Positions 34,890 through 41,614 of a DNA stretch of 64,000 nt are shown here, piece after piece; positions within the stretch are counted from its first letter, which is position 1; each line of letters opens with the position of its first letter. The stretch spans positions 1 through 64,000 of the forward strand of contig DAIDAP010000027.1 of assembly GCA_027310565.1 (NCBI GenBank), given 5' to 3'. The position numbers and the translations under genes were made by a program. Source of the DNA: Chloroflexota bacterium. GTDB taxonomy: Bacteria > Chloroflexota > Limnocylindria > P2-11E. The notes beneath the pieces are model-generated. The model had not been told where the DNA came from. It did not search any database and saw only the letters and a list, made by a program, of their open reading frames with translations.

Positions 34890-35408
34890 TCAGCGTCGCG
34901 CCGTGATCCGTCCGGTGTTGAAGCCGAGCCAGTGCATGCGCCCGAGGTGCCGCGCGTGCTCGACCTTCATGCAGCGGCCCATGACCACACCCAGGCCGGC
35001 TTCCTCCGCGACCCGCCCGCCGTCGAAGCTGATGACGCCGTACTGGCACCAGAGCGCCCGCGCGCCGATCCGCACCGCATCCTCCGCGATGCCCGGCACC
35101 GCGTCCGGCGCGCGGAACACGTCGACGGCGTCGATCTTGAAGGGGATCGCGCGCAGATCCGGATAGCTGCGCTCACCGAGGATGCTCGTCTCGCGCGGGT
35201 TCACCGGCACGACGCGGTAGCCGTGGCGCCGCAGGTAGAAGCCGACGAAGTTCGAGGCCCGCAGCTCGTTCGGCGAGAGGCCGACGATGGCGATGGTCTC
35301 CGACGTGTTGAGGATCCCGAGGATCGTGACCGGGTCCTGCCACCGCGGCGGGATGTCCCGCACGGTCACGCCGTGACCCGGAGCGTCTCGACGGCCCTGC
35401 TCAACCAT
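34890..35408 (-). CDS. CoA-binding (YccU-like) protein
   Basis: This 172-residue protein has the Rossmann-type CoA-binding domain of YccU and the N-terminus of succinyl-CoA synthetase alpha: ILNTSETIAIVGLSPNELRASNFVGFYLRRHGYRVVPVNPRE, VDVFRAPDAVPGIAEDAVRIGARALWCQYGV and GLGVVMGRCMKVEHAR. The ATG at 35408 overlaps the metY stop by 8 bp; internal GTGs at 35369 and 35363 are alternatives nearer the start of homology. CoA-binding proteins of this kind often end metY/metX operons, but their role is unknown. Confidence 0.8.
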   Translation of the reverse strand: MVEQGRRDAPGHGVTVRDIPPRWQDPVTILGILNTSETIAIVGLSPNELRASNFVGFYLRRHGYRVVPVNPRETSILGERSYPDLRAIPFKIDAVDVFRAPDAVPGIAEDAVRIGARALWCQYGVISFDGGRVAEEAGLGVVMGRCMKVEHARHLGRMHWLGFNTGRITARR

Positions 35409-36750
35409 TCGTCTTCACGCGTGAGCCGGACTCGCTCCTCGCGGCTGCGCCGCTCGTCGCACGGACCTCTTTCAGCGCGGTCGCGAGGTCGTCGATGAGA
35501 TCGTCCGCCGTCTCGAGGCCCACCGAGAGGCGGATCGTGCCCGCGCCGATCCCCGCCGCCGCGAGCTCGTCGTCCGAGAGCTGCCGGTGCGTCGTCGTCG
35601 CGGGGTGGATGATGAGGCTCTTCGCGTCGCCGACGTTCGCGAGGTGGCTCCAGAGCGTGACGCTCTCGATGAAGCGGCGACCGGCCTCGCGGCCGCTGGG
35701 GAGGTCGAACGAGAAGATCGCGCCGGCACCGAGCGGCAGGTACTTGCGGACGAGCGGCGCGTACGCGCTCGACGGCAGCCCCGGGTACCGCACATTCGTC
35801 ACTCCGGGCTGCCGCTCGAGCCACGACGCGATCGCGGTCGCGTTCTCGACGTGGCGCCGCATCCGGAGGGGCAACGTCTCGAGCCCGAGCAGGAACAGGA
35901 ACGCGTTGAACGGGCTCATGCAGGCGCCGAGGTCGCGCAGCGACTCCGCGCGCAGCTTCATCAGGTAGCCGTACACGCCGAACGTCTCGTGGAACGCGAG
36001 CCCGTGATACGCGGCGGACGGATCGGCGACCACCGGGAAGCGGCCGTTCGACCAGTCGAAGGTCCCCGCTTCCACGGCGACTCCGCCGATGCTCGTTCCG
36101 TGTCCACCGATGAACTTCGTCGCCGAGTGCGTCACGATGTCGGCGCCCCACTCGATCGGACGGCACAGGTACGGCGTGGCGAACGTTGAGTCGATCATCA
36201 GGGGCGCCCCGTGCTCGTGCGCGATCCGCGCGACGGCCTCGATGTCCAGCACGTTCCCGCCCGGATTGCCGATCGTCTCGCCGAAGAGCACCTTCGTGTC
36301 GGGGCGCAGCGCCGAACGCCACTGGTCGAGGTCGTCGGGATCGACGAAGGTGATCGCGAACCCGAGCTTGCGCTGCAGGTGTTTGAGCTGCGTGATCGAC
36401 CCGCCGTAAAGGGCGGCCGACGAGACGACGTGGTCGCCCGGCGTGAGCATCGTGAAGAAGCACGCCGCCTGCGCCGCGAGGCCGCTCGCGAACGCGACGC
36501 CGCCGGCGGCGCGCTCGAGGTTGGCGACGCGCTCCTCGAATACCGCGGTCGTCGGGTTCATGATCCGCGAGTACGTGTTCCCGTACTCCTGCAGGTTGAA
36601 GTACGCGGCCGCGGAGTCGGGGTCCTCGAAGACATACGAGGTCGTCTGGAAGATCGGCACCGCGCGGGCGCCGGTGTAGGGCTCGGGACGCTGACCCGCG
36701 TGGATGGCACGCGTGTCGAAGCCGAAGTCCTTGGCCGGCCTCTCCCTCAT
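35401..36750 (-). CDS. metY: O-acetylhomoserine sulfhydrylase (O-acetylhomoserine aminocarboxypropyltransferase)
   Basis: This 449-residue PLP enzyme of the Cys/Met metabolism family makes homocysteine from O-acetylhomoserine and sulfide. Typical features are FGFDTRAIHAGQRPEP at the start, PIFQTTSYVFEDPDSAAAYF, NPTTAVFEERVANLE, FGETIGNPGGNVLD, and the PLP lysine in HSATKFIGGHGTSIGG (about residue 210). The long form (over 420 residues) with this N-terminus is MetY rather than MetB/MetC. It follows metX by 37 bp, so the two successive steps of homocysteine formation are encoded together under the ssu leader region. Confidence 0.92.
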   Translation of the reverse strand: MRERPAKDFGFDTRAIHAGQRPEPYTGARAVPIFQTTSYVFEDPDSAAAYFNLQEYGNTYSRIMNPTTAVFEERVANLERAAGGVAFASGLAAQAACFFTMLTPGDHVVSSAALYGGSITQLKHLQRKLGFAITFVDPDDLDQWRSALRPDTKVLFGETIGNPGGNVLDIEAVARIAHEHGAPLMIDSTFATPYLCRPIEWGADIVTHSATKFIGGHGTSIGGVAVEAGTFDWSNGRFPVVADPSAAYHGLAFHETFGVYGYLMKLRAESLRDLGACMSPFNAFLFLLGLETLPLRMRRHVENATAIASWLERQPGVTNVRYPGLPSSAYAPLVRKYLPLGAGAIFSFDLPSGREAGRRFIESVTLWSHLANVGDAKSLIIHPATTTHRQLSDDELAAAGIGAGTIRLSVGLETADDLIDDLATALKEVRATSGAAARSESGSRVKTNG

Positions 36751-36787: not shown

Positions 36788-37966
36788 TCACGCGAGGAAA
36801 TCCATGATGAGCTCCGTCATGCGCGCCTCCTCGAGAAGGAACGAATCGTGGCCGTACGACGCGTCGATCACCTCGTGCCGCGAGCGCTTCCCGTCGGCGC
36901 GGAGCGCACGGTGGATCTCCTCGGAATCACGCGAAGGATAGAGCCAGTCCGAGGAGAAGGAGATGAGGAGCGTCGCCGCTCGCACGCCGGCGAGCGCGCG
37001 CTCCAGCGAGCCCCCGCCGTACCTGCGCGCGAGATCGAAGTACGTGAGCGCGCGAGAGATGTACAGGTACGCGTTGGCGTCGAAGCGCTTCGCGAACGCA
37101 TCCGCCTGGTGGCCGAGGTACGACTCGACCTGGAAGTCCGGCTCGGTGAGCGTGTAGGAGTACGCGTCGCGATCCTGAAGCTCGCGCCCGAACTTCGCGC
37201 GCACGGCGTGATCCGACAGGTACGTGATGTGGCCGACCATGCGCGCGATCCTGATGCCGCGATCCGGACGGCGGCCCGTGCCTTCGTAGTGCCCGCCCTG
37301 CCAGTCGGGGTCGGCCATGATCGCGTTGCGCGCGATGGCGTTCCAGGCGACGCCCTGCGCCCCGAGGCGCGCGGTCGCGGCGATCGCGATGATGCGCTCG
37401 ATCGCGTCGGGGAACTGGACGGCCCACTCGAGCGCCTGCATCCCGCCGAGCGATCCGCCGCTCGCGGCGTACACGCGGCCGATGCCGAGCTCGCGCAGGA
37501 GAGCGTGCTCCGCGCGGACCATATCGCCGACGGTGACGACCGGGAAGTCGCTCCCGTAGACGCGACCGGTGCGCGGATCGATCGATCCCGGGCCGGTGGA
37601 TCCGCGGCACGAGCCGATGAGGTTGCTGCAGACGACGTAGAAGCGGTCGGTGTCGAAGGCCTTGCCGGGGCCGATCATGCCGTCCCACCAGCCGAGGCCG
37701 CTCGTGCCGCGCTCCGCCGCGCCCACGCCGTCGACGGTCGTCGGCGCGCTCGGGTCGTCGCTCCGGCCCGCGGCGTGCGCGTCGCCGGACAGCGCGTGGC
37801 ACACGAGGACGACGTTGTCCTTCGCCTTCGCGAGGGCGCCGTACGTCTCGTAGGCGATGCGCACGCCGCGGAGCTCCCGCCCCGAATCGAGCGGGAGCGG
37901 CTCGCTGAGCTCGTGGAAGCGTGTCCGGACGGTGCCGACGCTCCCCCGAGTCGTCGCGGTCGTCAC
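36788..37966 (-). CDS. metX: Homoserine O-acetyltransferase
   Basis: This 392-residue alpha/beta-hydrolase-fold enzyme acetylates homoserine with acetyl-CoA. Landmarks are VLVCHALSGDAHAAG, GWWDGMIGPGKAFDTDRFYVVCSNLIGSCRGSTGP, the nucleophile elbow ASGGSLGGMQALEWA, the acid in FSSDWLYP, and the His in ASYGHDSFLLE near the C-terminus. The standard MetX length is met. Some family members use succinyl-CoA; residues that decide this cannot be judged reliably by eye. The gene starts 9 bp after ssuB. Confidence 0.92.
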   Translation of the reverse strand: MTTATTRGSVGTVRTRFHELSEPLPLDSGRELRGVRIAYETYGALAKAKDNVVLVCHALSGDAHAAGRSDDPSAPTTVDGVGAAERGTSGLGWWDGMIGPGKAFDTDRFYVVCSNLIGSCRGSTGPGSIDPRTGRVYGSDFPVVTVGDMVRAEHALLRELGIGRVYAASGGSLGGMQALEWAVQFPDAIERIIAIAATARLGAQGVAWNAIARNAIMADPDWQGGHYEGTGRRPDRGIRIARMVGHITYLSDHAVRAKFGRELQDRDAYSYTLTEPDFQVESYLGHQADAFAKRFDANAYLYISRALTYFDLARRYGGGSLERALAGVRAATLLISFSSDWLYPSRDSEEIHRALRADGKRSRHEVIDASYGHDSFLLEEARMTELIMDFLA

Positions 37967-37975
37967 GTCGAACGG

Positions 37976-38728
37976 CTACGCGACGGCCGCCGTCGTGCGC
38001 TCGAGATGCACTGCCTCGAGCAACGCGACGCGCAGCGCCGCCAGCGCGGGATCTCGGCGATCGCGCGGGCGCGGTGTGGCCACCGGGATGACGTCGATGA
38101 CGCGCCCCGGACGCTCGCCGAGGACGAGCACGCGGTCGGCGAGATACACGGCCTCGTCGAGGTCGTGGGTGACGAGCACGAGCGTCGGGCGGTAGCGCGC
38201 CCACGCCGCGAGGAGGTGGTCCTGCAACCGCATGCGCGTGAACGCATCGAGCGCGTTGAACGGCTCGTCGAGGAGCAGCACCTGCGGCTCGACGACCAGC
38301 GAGCGCGCGAGCGCGACGCGCTGCGCCATCCCGCCGGAGAGCTCCTTCGGAAGCGCGGTGCCGAACGGCGCGAGGTCGACCGCGGCGAGCGCGGCACGCA
38401 CCAAATCGGCGGCGCGCGGCGAGGACCGTTCGTGAAGCCCGAACGCGACGTTGCCGGCGACGTCGAGCCACGGGAAGAGCCGCGGCTCCTGGAACACCAG
38501 GCCCACCGCGGGATGCGGACCACAGATCGTCTCGTCGCCGACCCGGATCTCGCCGTGGTATCGCGTGTCCAGGCCCGCGACGAGGCGAAGGACGGTCGAC
38601 TTCCCGCAACCCGACGGCCCGACGATCGCGACGATCTCGCTCGGCGCGATCTCCACGTCCAGCCCGCCGAGGACGGGACGATCGCCGTAGCGCTTGCGCA
38701 GCTCGCGGATGATGAGCGGCCGACTCAT
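37976..38728 (-). CDS. ssuB: Nitrate/sulfonate/taurine-type ABC transporter ATP-binding protein
   Basis: This 250-residue ABC ATPase of the SsuB/TauB group has the Walker A motif GPSGCGKSTVLRLVAGL, the Q-loop VFQEPRLFPWLDVAGNVAFGL, the signature LSGGMAQRVALARSLV, the Walker B motif LLLDEPFNALDAFTRMRLQ and the switch VTHDLDEAVYLADRVLVL. Its ATG overlaps the permease stop by 4 bp. With the permease and binding protein upstream it forms a complete importer for an organosulfur anion. That cargo is supported by co-transcription with metX and metY. Confidence 0.88.
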   Translation of the reverse strand: MSRPLIIRELRKRYGDRPVLGGLDVEIAPSEIVAIVGPSGCGKSTVLRLVAGLDTRYHGEIRVGDETICGPHPAVGLVFQEPRLFPWLDVAGNVAFGLHERSSPRAADLVRAALAAVDLAPFGTALPKELSGGMAQRVALARSLVVEPQVLLLDEPFNALDAFTRMRLQDHLLAAWARYRPTLVLVTHDLDEAVYLADRVLVLGERPGRVIDVIPVATPRPRDRRDPALAALRVALLEAVHLERTTAAVA

Positions 38729-39414
38729 CGTCGCGCGACTCCGATCGTGTCGCGCCAGCGCAGCACGCGACGCTCGACCACGCGGATGAGCGTATCGGTG
38801 AGCTTGCCGAGGATCGCGAGCGCGACGATCGCGACGAACATGAAGTCGACGCGCGTCGACTGCTGCGAGTCGGTGAGACGGAATCCCAGACCGCGCGAGC
38901 TGCCGAAGAACTCGGCGACGACGACGAACAGCCACGCCTGCGTCGCGCCGAGACGCATCCCGGTGAGCAGGTCGGGCAGCGCGGCGGGCAGGATGACCCG
39001 GCGCGCGATCTCCCCTCTGGCGAGGTCGAAGACCTGTGCGACCTCGACGAGCTTGCGGTCGACGCCGGTGATGCCCGCGACGAGACTGACGTAGACGGGA
39101 AAGAACGCCCCGATCGCGACTAGCGCGACCTTCGGCGGCTCGTCTATGCCGAGCCAAAGAAGGAGCAGCGGTGCCCACGCGAGCGTGGGCACCGTGCGGA
39201 GCGCCTGCAGCGTCGGCTCCAGCGCGCGCTCGGCGCGGGCCGACAGGCCGGTGACCGTGGCGAGCGCGATCGCGACGATCGAGCCGAGGACGAAGCCCTC
39301 GAGCACGCGCGCGGTCGTCGCGAGCAGGTCCTGCTGCAGGAGACCCCGCCGCCACAGGCCGATCGCGGCGTCGAGGACGATCGGCGGCGGCGGCAGCTGG
39401 TACGCCTCGAACAC
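38725..39414 (-). CDS. ssuC: Nitrate/sulfonate/taurine-type ABC transporter permease (5' end uncertain)
   Basis: From the GTG at 39414 this is a 229-residue membrane protein with the SsuC pattern (TLQALRTVPTLAWAPLLLLWLGIDEPPKVALVAIGAFFPVYVSLVAGITGVDRKLVEVAQVF, then LPDLLTGMRLGATQAWLFVVVAEFFG). In the same frame the homology clearly extends upstream through a first TM segment (WVVPALILALWWGSVALGVF) to about 39540. No ATG, GTG or TTG lies in that stretch. The true start may be the ATT at 39538-39540, two bases after the ssuA stop, or a CTG at 39520-39522. Otherwise the start was lost to a base change. Confidence 0.82.
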   Translation of the reverse strand: MFEAYQLPPPPIVLDAAIGLWRRGLLQQDLLATTARVLEGFVLGSIVAIALATVTGLSARAERALEPTLQALRTVPTLAWAPLLLLWLGIDEPPKVALVAIGAFFPVYVSLVAGITGVDRKLVEVAQVFDLARGEIARRVILPAALPDLLTGMRLGATQAWLFVVVAEFFGSSRGLGFRLTDSQQSTRVDFMFVAIVALAILGKLTDTLIRVVERRVLRWRDTIGVARR

Positions 39415-39542: not shown

Positions 39543-40580
39543 CTACTTGATGACCGCCTTCGCGTACGCCGGCTCGATGAGATCGACGACCGCCTGCTCG
39601 ACGTTCGCGCCCGGATTCGCGAGCTGCTCCGCGTTGACCGTCGGGATCACCGCGCGGAGGACGGCGATGTGCGCGTCACCCGGGATCCCCGACGTCCGGA
39701 AGTTCATGCGTTCGAAGAGCTCGCGCTTCGCGACGTCGAGCGGCAGCTGCGCTGCATCCGCCAGGATCCGCGCCGCGCCCTCGGGATTGTCGATGATCCA
39801 CTGCTTCGCGCGTTCGTACAGCTCGATCACCCGCTTCGTCGTCTCCGGGTACTTGCGGAGGAAGTCCTCGCGCGAGTTCAGGAAGCCGTAGGTGTTGAAG
39901 TCCTTGTTGCGGTAGATGAGCCTGCTCCCGGCCTGCAGCTCGCTCGCGGCCATGTGCGGATCGAGACCCGACCACGCGTCGACCTGCCCGCGCTCGAGCG
40001 CGGTGCGTCCGTCGGCGTGCGGGAGGTTCACGTACTGGATGTCCGCCTGCGAGAGACCCGCCTGCTGGAGCGTGCGGAGGAGGAAGAAATACGGGTCGGT
40101 GCCCTTCTGCGCCGCGATCCGCTTGCCCTTCAGGTCGGTGATGCTCTTCGCGGTCGAGCCCTTCGCGACGACGAGCGCGGTCCACTCGGGCTGCTCGTAG
40201 ATGTAGACCGCCTTGATCGGATTCCCGTTCGCGCGCGAGAGGAGCGCGGCGGAGCCCGCGGTCGACCCGAAGTCCACCGCGTTGCCCTGGAGGAAGTTCA
40301 GCGCGTTGCTCGAGCCGGCCGAGTAGACCCACTTGATGGAGACGCGGGGGAACGCCTGCTCCACCCAGCCCTGCTGCTTCAGCACGAGCGACGGCGGCGA
40401 ATAGGTCGCGTAATCGATGCGGAGCTCGGCGAGACCGGGGTCCGTGCCGATCGCCGAGGCGGCACCAGCCGTCGCGGCCGCGGCAGAGGTCGGAGCGGCC
40501 GGCGGGATCGCCGCGGCCCCACCGCATGCGGTGATCGCCGATGCGAGGATCGCGATCAGCGCCGCGGACGTTCGGTGCAC
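39543..40580 (-). CDS. ssuA: Sulfonate/nitrate/taurine-type ABC substrate-binding lipoprotein
   Basis: This 345-residue binding protein of the NMT1/SsuA group begins with a lipoprotein signal peptide (LIAILASAITACGG, lipidated Cys19) and an Ala/Thr linker. The mature domain has LRIDYATYSPPSLVLKQQGWVEQAFP, WVYSAGSSNALNFLQGNAVDFGSTAGSAALL, LKGKRIAAQKGTDPYFFLLR and GRTALERGQVDAWSGLDPH, all usual for aliphatic sulfonate binders. The GTG start is preceded by GAAGGAGG at a 7-base distance. It is the first structural gene behind the leader peptide and terminator at 40603-40768. Confidence 0.87.
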   Translation of the reverse strand: MHRTSAALIAILASAITACGGAAAIPPAAPTSAAAATAGAASAIGTDPGLAELRIDYATYSPPSLVLKQQGWVEQAFPRVSIKWVYSAGSSNALNFLQGNAVDFGSTAGSAALLSRANGNPIKAVYIYEQPEWTALVVAKGSTAKSITDLKGKRIAAQKGTDPYFFLLRTLQQAGLSQADIQYVNLPHADGRTALERGQVDAWSGLDPHMAASELQAGSRLIYRNKDFNTYGFLNSREDFLRKYPETTKRVIELYERAKQWIIDNPEGAARILADAAQLPLDVAKRELFERMNFRTSGIPGDAHIAVLRAVIPTVNAEQLANPGANVEQAVVDLIEPAYAKAVIK

Positions 40581-40602
40581 CCTGGGTCCTCCTTCAAATG
40601 AG

Positions 40603-40628
40603 AAGGCCCCCGATCTGTCGGGGGCCTT
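40603..40628 (-). terminator. Attenuator terminator hairpin ahead of ssuA
   Basis: A perfect 11-bp stem (AAGGCCCCCGA and TCGGGGGCCTT) closes on the 4-base loop CAGA in the minus-strand transcript and is followed by TTCTCATTT. It sits between the leader peptide and ssuA. The first arm shares AAGGCC (40623-40628) with GACACAAAGGCC (40623-40634). That segment can instead pair perfectly over 12 bp with GGCCTTTGTGTC (40673-40684) inside the leader ORF. The two pairings exclude each other, as terminator and antiterminator do. Confidence 0.75.
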
Positions 40629-40661
40629 TGTGTCCTTTGGGATGCCTGCGTTACGCGGGGG

Positions 40662-40733
40662 TCACGTCCAACGACACAAAGGCCGTCCACACATGGAGGC
40701 CATCGCGCACATGGACACGCACACGCACGTCAC
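40662..40733 (-). CDS. Cysteine/methionine-rich leader peptide of the ssu-met operon
   Basis: This 23-codon ORF starts at a GTG, begins MTCVCVSMCAMASMC and ends GRPLCRWT before a TGA. Five of its 23 residues are Cys (positions 3, 5, 9, 15, 20) and four are Met counting the start. That is far above expectation in this genome. It lies directly behind a promoter and ahead of mutually exclusive hairpins. Stalling at the early Cys codons would leave the antiterminator arm (40673-40684, within codons 17-21) free. A ribosome reaching the stop would cover it and let the terminator form. No ribosome site is seen; with the -10 only 6 bp upstream the transcript would be leaderless. Confidence 0.72.
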   Translation of the reverse strand: MTCVCVSMCAMASMCGRPLCRWT

Positions 40734-40739
40734 GCCCCG

Positions 40740-40768
40740 ACCCTAGGAAGCGGGGACCCGTGAGTCAA
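40740..40768 (-). promoter_or_regulatory. Promoter of the ssu-met operon
   Basis: On the minus strand TTGACT (40763-40768) and TAGGGT (40740-40745) are separated by exactly 17 bp, a near-consensus housekeeping promoter. The GTG of the leader peptide lies 6 bp after the -10, so transcription should begin at or beside the start codon. The promoter, leader ORF, antiterminator, terminator and ssuA follow each other within about 190 bp. Confidence 0.7.
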
Positions 40769-41540
40769 TGCGCGTTGGTCAGGACGCACAGCGTCGCGGC
40801 GAGCCCGCACCGGAGCAGGCGCAAAGTGTCGTGCACCGGGCCGACCGCGGCCCGTACCGCCACGGCTCCGAGCGCCGCTCGGCGACCCTGGCTGCCGCCT
40901 CGTCCAGAACGAGCGACCGCGGGCGCGGGCATGGCGCTCCCGCTCACCACGACACGCCGGCGACCGCGATCTGCTCGCCGATCCCGGATGCTCGCGGCGC
41001 TCTCCAACATCACCACGCCGCGGGGAACCGCGCGATCTTCACGGCGATCTATGTCGGCGATTGCGAGAGGGGGCTGTTTTCGAACGACTGTCCGCGTATG
41101 CCAGAAGCGTGTGGCCCGTCCCGTGTTGGATCGCAGGAGATGGATCGTACCTCGATAGCGAGGATCCAAACGAGGTCGCTCCCGCGACGCAGCTCGCAGT
41201 TGACAGCTTCGTGCCCAACGGTCCTAAGTCGTCCCGGCCTCCAGAGCGCGCTTGAGGTTGCCGAGCAGATACCGATTCCGACCCGCGTTGAGACGCATGA
41301 ACAACGGAAGGATCGGTCGCACGAGCGCCGTCGGTTGGATCCGCACGGGCGATCTCCTCACAGCGCCCCCGGCCACGTCCACGCGGGTGGTGACCAGGAT
41401 CACTAGCCGTCCTCTGGTCGCGAACTCTAGCGCGACGTGCTCTTCCGACCGGTTCTAGATGACCTTGAGGATGAAACTGAGAGGATCATGTCCGTCGAGG
41501 CCAGTCGGCTCAGCCCCTCGCCGACAACGCGCGCAGCGTG
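40769..41540. other. Intergenic stretch without a supportable gene
   Basis: About 770 bp between the ssu promoter and tRNA-Glu. Base composition is less GC-rich and codon structure is weak. Several frames stay open for 60-210 codons on both strands (for example 40765-41169 minus and 40768-41406 plus). Their predicted products are low-complexity and Arg-rich, lack ribosome sites and resemble nothing I know. It could contain a decayed gene or promoter elements of the flanking units. Confidence 0.5.
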
Positions 41541-41614
41541 TAGCCCGTAGCGGATTCGAACCGCTGATCTCAGCCTTGAGAGGGCTGCGTCCTGGGCCTC
41601 TAGACGAACGGGCC
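41541..41614 (-). tRNA. tRNA-Glu (anticodon CTC)
   Basis: The 74-nt cloverleaf is readable on the minus strand. The acceptor GGCCCGT pairs with ACGGGCT (one G-U at the first pair). The anticodon stem CAGCC/GGCTG encloses CTCTCAA with CTC at 34-36, and the T arm is AGCGG-TTCGAAT-CCGCT. The 3' CCA is not encoded. It lies 24 bp upstream of the divergent MBL hydrolase gene. Confidence 0.96.

Follow-up and report, generated by a model that had tools for sequence, protein, structure and literature searches.

A cysteine- and methionine-coded leader peptide as probable attenuator of a sulfonate-uptake and methionine operon in a Chloroflexota bacterium

The region upstream of ssuA on the minus strand of the window, i.e. 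the whole stretch of 64,000 nucleotides of Chloroflexota DNA analyzed here, very likely functions as a leader-peptide transcription attenuator. Judged from its sequence, it probably allows expression of the sulfonate-uptake and methionine genes of this soil bacterium only when cysteine or methionine is in short supply. The element appears to be one of a number of related switches that the lineage has placed before many of its amino-acid operons, and it most likely arose by copying of a methionine-rich attenuator of thrC. A leader-peptide attenuator was already proposed in the initial annotation. This reading is now supported by short Cys-codon ORFs in relatives, by paralogous elements, by the match between leader codons and downstream genes, and by RNA folding.

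The genes downstream of the element are arranged head to tail on the minus strand in the order ssuA-ssuC-ssuB-metX-metY-CoA-binding. The substrate-binding protein of an aliphatic sulfonate ABC transporter is encoded by ssuA (39543..40580; TIGR01728, 233.7 bits, cut-off 163.5), homoserine O-acetyltransferase by metX (36788..37966; NF001209, 483.8 bits, cut-off 331) and O-acetylhomoserine/O-acetylserine sulfhydrylase by metY (35401..36750; TIGR01326, 581.8 bits, cut-off 495.1). The sulfur-related identities first given to these three genes are supported above cut-off; the permease gene (38725..39414; PF00528) and the gene for the ATP-binding protein (37976..38728; PF00005) are better called ssuC-like and ssuB-like, their best NCBIfam models being SsuC and SsuB, each below its cut-off. 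A gene for a CoA-binding domain protein (34890..35408; PF13380), also kept in relatives, is the final one of the conserved cluster. The nearest named records are Chloroflexota metagenome bins. A tRNA-Glu gene (41540-41614) lies on the same strand, approximately 0.9 kb upstream.

The leader itself follows a -35 element TTGACT (40763..40768) and, after a spacer of 17 nt, a -10 element TAGGGT (40740..40745), a pattern that is rare genome-wide. Six nucleotides separate the -10 element from a GTG codon (40733-40731) which opens a leaderless ORF of 23 codons (40662..40733), encoding MTCVCVSMCAMASMCGRPLCRWT and ending at TGA 40664-40662. It contains five Cys codons (3, 5, 9, 15 and 20) and four Met codons (the start and the internal codons 8, 11 and 14). 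Within this ORF lies the 5' arm of the antiterminator, GGCCTTTGTGTC (40673..40684), of which GACACAAAGGCC (40623..40634) is the perfect complement; the resulting helix of 12 bp is lengthened by TTGG/CCAA in the predicted fold. An intrinsic terminator hairpin, AAGGCCCCCGA-CAGA-TCGGGGGCCTT with tail CTCATTT (40603..40628), was identified in the sequence, in a terminator scan and by folding. Its arms (40628-40618 and 40613-40603) form 11 bp around the loop CAGA, and the U-tract that follows is weak (CTTCTCATTT). The hexamer AAGGCC (40623-40628) is part of both helices, which makes them mutually exclusive. Next come the Shine-Dalgarno sequence AAGGAGG (40588..40594) and the GTG start (40580) of ssuA. 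All these elements had been proposed before, and the promoter was borne out base for base; the ORF with its Cys and Met codons, the two arms, the overlapping terminator and the ribosome site of ssuA were likewise confirmed in the minus-strand sequence. A second GTG at 40728 may be an alternative leader start. It begins an ORF in another frame, MRVRVHVRDGLHVWTAFVSLDVTPA, which overlaps the leader ORF and lacks Cys and internal Met codons; it is located 11 nt past the -10 element, versus 6 nt for GTG 40733, the distance in the majority of the order's leaders being 7-11 nt. The proposed reading frame is supported by the alignment, in frame, of its Met codons with those of thrC leaders.

Folding was performed in silico with the RNA left free by the footprint of a ribosome with a given codon in its A site. 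When the A site holds codon 3, 5 or 9, the 12-bp antiterminator is predicted to form before the 3' arm of the terminator has been made. For codons 3 and 5 it is the minimum even in the presence of the full terminator, helped by the segment GGCCTCC (40701-40695); in the minimum free energy structure of the whole leader this segment is predicted to pair with GGGGGCC in the 3' arm of the terminator. When codon 15, codon 20 or the stop codon occupies the A site, the 11-bp terminator is predicted, in agreement with the earlier proposal for a ribosome that reaches the TGA. The complete terminator is also the predicted equilibrium fold for codon 9 and in the absence of any ribosome. Antitermination at codon 9 would therefore rely on kinetics, and the outcome without a ribosome is predicted to be kinetic as well. 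The proposal that stalling at Cys codons 3, 5 and 9 yields the antiterminator is supported by these folds, with the qualification that at codon 9 the terminator wins at equilibrium. Since the footprint allows codons up to approximately 13 to act, Cys codons 3, 5 and 9 and Met codons 8 and 11 are candidate sensors and Cys codons 15 and 20 cannot be. The segments GGCCTCCA and TGGACGGCC are able to pair in a hairpin of the 1:2 type, which is present in one predicted fold and absent from others.

Based on these data we infer the following mechanism. Transcription would start at or near GTG 40733, so that translation of the leader peptide begins at the very 5' end of the RNA. When Cys-tRNA, and probably also Met-tRNA, is short, the ribosome would stall within the first 9-13 codons and leave the arm 40673-40684 free. 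This arm would then pair with 40623-40634 and disrupt the terminator 5' arm, allowing the polymerase to read through to ssuACB-metX-metY. When the amino acids are plentiful, the ribosome at the TGA would cover the arm and the terminator 40603-40628 would form.

How unusual the arrangement is was evaluated in the genome of origin. A scan of the whole genome for TTGAC-N17..19-TANNNT-N4..8-RTG, i.e. promoter plus leaderless start, found five sites, compared with two in a reversed control. At three of these sites the start codon is that of a leader peptide (that of the window and those of loci L073 and L074), and the remaining two start a LexA-like protein and another HTH protein, as read from the translations. 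Strict intrinsic terminators (stem of at least 8, at least 5 T of 9) numbered 19 in the 1.86 Mb sampled (the window and L078-L177), compared with 6 in order-1 random sequence, and the 12-nt antiterminator match of the window is the longest among them. Six of the 19 follow leader ORFs whose codons, for the most part, match the gene downstream. As sampling stopped at 67% of the genome, the counts of terminators and leaders apply to that part, and the genome may contain further attenuators. In the part sampled, strict terminators are very scarce, approximately one third of them being attenuators, and ordinary transcription ends must mostly rely on other means. ORFs of 20-26 codons with at least five Cys codons are rare (3 of 4108). 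However, an order-1 Markov model of the local TG-rich stretch gives at least five Cys codons with P = 0.17. The richness in Cys codons is real, but as evidence the count is suggestive only, and the case for an attenuator rests on the leaders of relatives, the homologous attenuators, the codon/gene match and the folding.

Orthologous SsuA proteins (67-81% identity) are encoded in five other genomes of the family, in the same gene order to the extent of the contigs, one of which stops after ssuC while another is rearranged or misassembled within metY. All five have a short Cys-codon ORF at the equivalent site, directly past a promoter-like sequence. These ORFs carry C-x-C codons and 0-2 Met codons beyond the start, and encode MLRTALTCVCP (two species), MTRAAAACASSFRMHRCACVCL, MTAHLSMRMPRQAGGCRRACACLSAL and MTAHRSMRMPRQAGGSRRACACLSAL. 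The initial annotation had suggested that Cys codons and pairings could be followed through such relatives. The Cys codons are found in five of five, but the paired arms of the window are absent from these five leaders, in which the downstream RNA is structured differently and shows no clear intrinsic terminator. It follows that the Cys-codon leader is a constant of the ssu operon and the terminator design is not. Outside the order, 11 loci of SsuA relatives were checked (from Herbaspirillum, Zoogloea, Fictibacillus and others), and none had a Cys-rich upstream ORF; in two relatives of the same class ssuA sits inside an operon.

Conservation of the pairing was found with paralogs instead. Loss of the pairing in relatives, which the initial annotation had named as grounds for refutation, therefore applies to the ssuA orthologs but not to the thrC paralogs. 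Six terminator-linked leaders were identified in the 1.86 Mb sampled. Besides that of ssuA these are MTHRAMSMSMAMASGGEAFVALDVTRA before the threonine synthase gene thrC (TIGR00260, above cut-off), MKRCWCPMAMRETRRACVCAAGPTVSGGGV (L121:1286-2112, contig C4) and MAQPIVIVVPVLVLATSQTALGGGS before two PucR-type HTH genes, MGRLVLVLIGIVLVERAYVRSGG before an acetolactate-synthase-like gene that is followed by ilvC, a leuA-like gene and ilvD, and MTFGLPLPILIPAPLEGARASAGGAT before an aminotransferase-ilvA-leuC operon. The leader of the window shows 78% alignment identity, arms included, with the thrC leader of its own genome. Both can also be aligned with the sister-species thrC leader, MNGFAMRMSMSMASMRRPLWRWM, which is in the same frame as the ORF of the window; the peptides of these two end in RPLCRWT before the stop. 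The thrC leader is Met-rich and the ssu leader shares Met codons with it. Promoter, ORF start and arms are conserved between the window and the thrC paralogs; conservation is poor in the spacer that separates the arms. Among the three homologs (the window and two thrC leaders) one antiterminator pair changes as T-A/C-G/T-A and the loop-closing pair of the terminator as A-T/G-C/G-C, one compensatory change in each helix within this small sample. The arm pattern GGCCTTYGTG occurs at only three loci in the order, namely the window, its own thrC and the sister-species thrC, and elsewhere in the class at one palindromic site.

The leader MKRCWCPMAMRETRRACVCAAGPTVSGGGV is a second Cys-rich leaderless leader, and the gene downstream of it encodes a PucR-type C-terminal HTH. 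To our knowledge, regulator genes are seldom controlled by amino-acid attenuation. Four species of the genus have Cys-rich leaders at this gene, while its paralogs, and homologs elsewhere in the family, have leaders rich in Ile, Leu and Val codons. In the PucR-gene leaders the codons TGC GTC TGT are located in a hairpin loop whose stem shows compensatory changes (CCCGCCGC/GCGGCGGG versus CCCATTGCAC/GTGCGATGGG). Cys leaders (L183-L186, L031, L033-L035) have the motif [TA]C[VA]C in common. Threonine synthase leaders of the order (L122:5744-7136, L178-L182, L216, L217, L236) carry codons for Met and Ile and hardly any for Thr; thrC thus seems tuned to methionine and isoleucine and not to its own product.

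A common plan was found upstream of ThrC and PucR-type homologs in the order: a promoter TTGACC-17-TAGCCT with a start 7-11 nt further on, and an ORF ending in GGGAGGC before its stop, followed by GCCTCCC-loop-GGGAGGC-TTT. Promoters of the other leaders of the order are mostly TTGACC or TTGACG, 16-19 nt from the -10 element. GGGAGGC-type matches number 44 within the order, spread over 22 of its 29 genomes, versus 4 in the remaining 148 genomes of the class; the control gave 4 matches. The element of the window is not among these 44; with thrC it forms the subtype GGCCTTYGTG. The same plan occurs at acetolactate-synthase genes of other Chloroflexota families in a sample of the phylum. Leader codons match the gene: His before hisZ-like genes, Met and Ile before thrC, Ile, Leu and Val before ilv, and Cys before ssu-met. 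Permutation gave P 5e-5 for Met in thrC leaders, P 5e-5 for Cys in ssu-met leaders and P 0.0015 for His in hisZ leaders, values that ignore shared ancestry and come from leaders partly picked by promoter score. No other argument for amino-acid sensing by such leaders is as strong as this codon/gene match across the order. By its architecture and its homology to the thrC leaders the element of the window belongs to the same class. It resembles the GGGAGGC attenuators in its leaderless promoter, ORF-internal arm, terminator spacing and codon/gene match, and differs in its arm, which is GGGAGGC/GCCTCCC there and GGCCTTTGTG/CACAAAGGCC in the window and the two thrC leaders. The hisZ-like genes (PPRGFRDILP; L223, L238) have a GGGAGGC attenuator with leaderless His-rich leaders, MPRLHHGHS... 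and MRHLHHTHS.... In another Chloroflexota family (L247:1138-1560) a T-box (Rfam, 147 bits) lies upstream of an acetolactate-synthase gene and runs directly into an Ile/Leu/Val leader attenuator, placing two amino-acid sensors in tandem.

Either cysteine or methionine may dominate the sensing. The same attenuator could respond to methionine or to the general translation state, the Cys codons being incidental to a TG-rich copy of the Met-sensing thrC leader. The homology to Met-rich thrC leaders, the ATG codons 8 and 11 within stalling range, the TG-rich composition, which accounts for much of the Cys content, and the role of metX and metY in producing methionine precursors are consistent with this. 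However, three Cys codons lie early in the stalling range and the ssu leaders of the relatives all have Cys codons with few Met codons, and we consider this explanation rather unlikely, though one to be reckoned with. Less probable still is control by the leaderless Cys ORF at the level of translation or through Rho, in mycobacterial style, with a minor role for the hairpin. The ssuA Cys ORFs of the relatives, which have no recognizable intrinsic terminator, would fit such control, as would a CCTTC/GAAGG hairpin that covers the ssuA Shine-Dalgarno sequence in the full-length predicted fold. Against it argue the presence of a strict 11-bp terminator, a type seldom seen in this genome, at the very site where the alternative partner lies inside the ORF, and the recurrence of an equivalent plan at other amino-acid genes.

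That the elements came together by chance, as a constitutive promoter, a TG-rich spacer and the ordinary terminator of the upstream tRNA-Glu transcript, is hardly credible. Composition may explain the Cys count and the tRNA gene is nearby, but the promoter intervenes between tRNA and terminator, and chance would not be expected to produce the homology, the compensatory pairs or the repeated occurrence at amino-acid operons. A metabolite riboswitch (SAM, T-box or of unknown type) in place of a leader peptide is equally improbable. In general, riboswitches often act on sulfur and methionine genes, and ileS of the same genome has a T-box-like leader, as read from its sequence. Searches with Rfam, at gathering and relaxed thresholds, gave no match in the leaders of the window or the ssuA relatives, nor in the other leaders of the order, and SAM riboswitch, T-box and other Rfam leaders were rejected for lack of a covariance-model match. 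What is conserved with the thrC paralogs, moreover, is the promoter, ORF start and arms and not the spacer between the arms. NCBIfam searches with the leader peptides gave no match either.

For the origin of the leader-peptide attenuator, a duplication from thrC to ssu is most likely, in which the ssu copy would have retained Met codons of the Met-rich thrC attenuator of the genus and gained Cys codons. It was hypothesized that attenuators of the lineage are interchangeable modules and that a Met-sensing thrC copy displaced an older, differently designed Cys leader at ssu-met, its codons being rewritten for Cys and Met jointly; for this scenario the chances seem evenly balanced. If correct, the findings would offer a documented case of attenuator copying between pathways with retuning through codon changes. 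They would also show a GC-rich genome with few intrinsic terminators devoting a large share of these to amino-acid switches, and they give a concrete prediction for what controls organosulfur scavenging in uncultured soil Chloroflexota.

Attenuation by leader peptides is classical for the trp, his, thr, ilv and leu operons (Kolter and Yanofsky type). The element of the window shares with these systems a short ORF with end-product codons, an ORF-internal arm, an overlapping Rho-independent terminator and a matching operon. It differs in being leaderless, in its Cys/Met codons, in its sulfonate-uptake and methionine operon and in its occurrence in Chloroflexota; a separate pause or protector hairpin as in the trp plan appears in one predicted fold but not in others. 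For leader peptides, a survey from 2010 extended the known range, Proteobacteria and Actinobacteria, to Firmicutes (PMC2965389). No leader-peptide attenuators in Chloroflexota were found in the open-access literature searched, and the element would extend leaderless leader-peptide attenuation to this phylum.

Cys-rich upstream ORFs in mycobacteria, mentioned in the initial annotation, are indeed known (PMC1262725; PMC9094748; PMC9031893; PMC13236596). Leaderless polycysteine sORFs are reported as cysteine-responsive attenuators there (Canestrari et al. 2020, as cited in PMC9094748, PMC9031893 and PMC13236596), and Cys leader ORFs without terminators have been predicted in Mycobacterium, P. acnes and B. 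longum (PMC1262725). Like the leader of the window, both types are short Cys-codon ORFs upstream of sulfur genes, leaderless in mycobacteria. The mycobacterial-type ORFs have Cys runs (near the stop codon in PMC1262725), no terminator and attenuation at the level of translation, whereas the leader of the window has C-x-C codons near its start and an intrinsic terminator. Compared with the features described in PMC1262725 and PMC9031893, it has the leaderless start, judged by sequence, and lacks an adjacent-Cys run without terminator.

In Streptomyces lividans leaderless attenuators with terminators are known (trpL1, ilvL and leuL2), and metL (MSTTSDRTPATEATTTPGARCMCRRMCAF), located before metNIQ, is Cys/Met-rich and has no clear terminator (PMC8079986). 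The S. lividans attenuators are, like the element of the window, leaderless, and metL likewise precedes a sulfur amino acid uptake operon (PMC8079986). They belong to another phylum, and the likeness described here is one of architecture. The statement in the initial annotation that such an attenuator had not been described thus holds only for the combination found here, its parts having precedents in the leaderless Cys leaders of mycobacteria and the leaderless terminator attenuators of Streptomyces.
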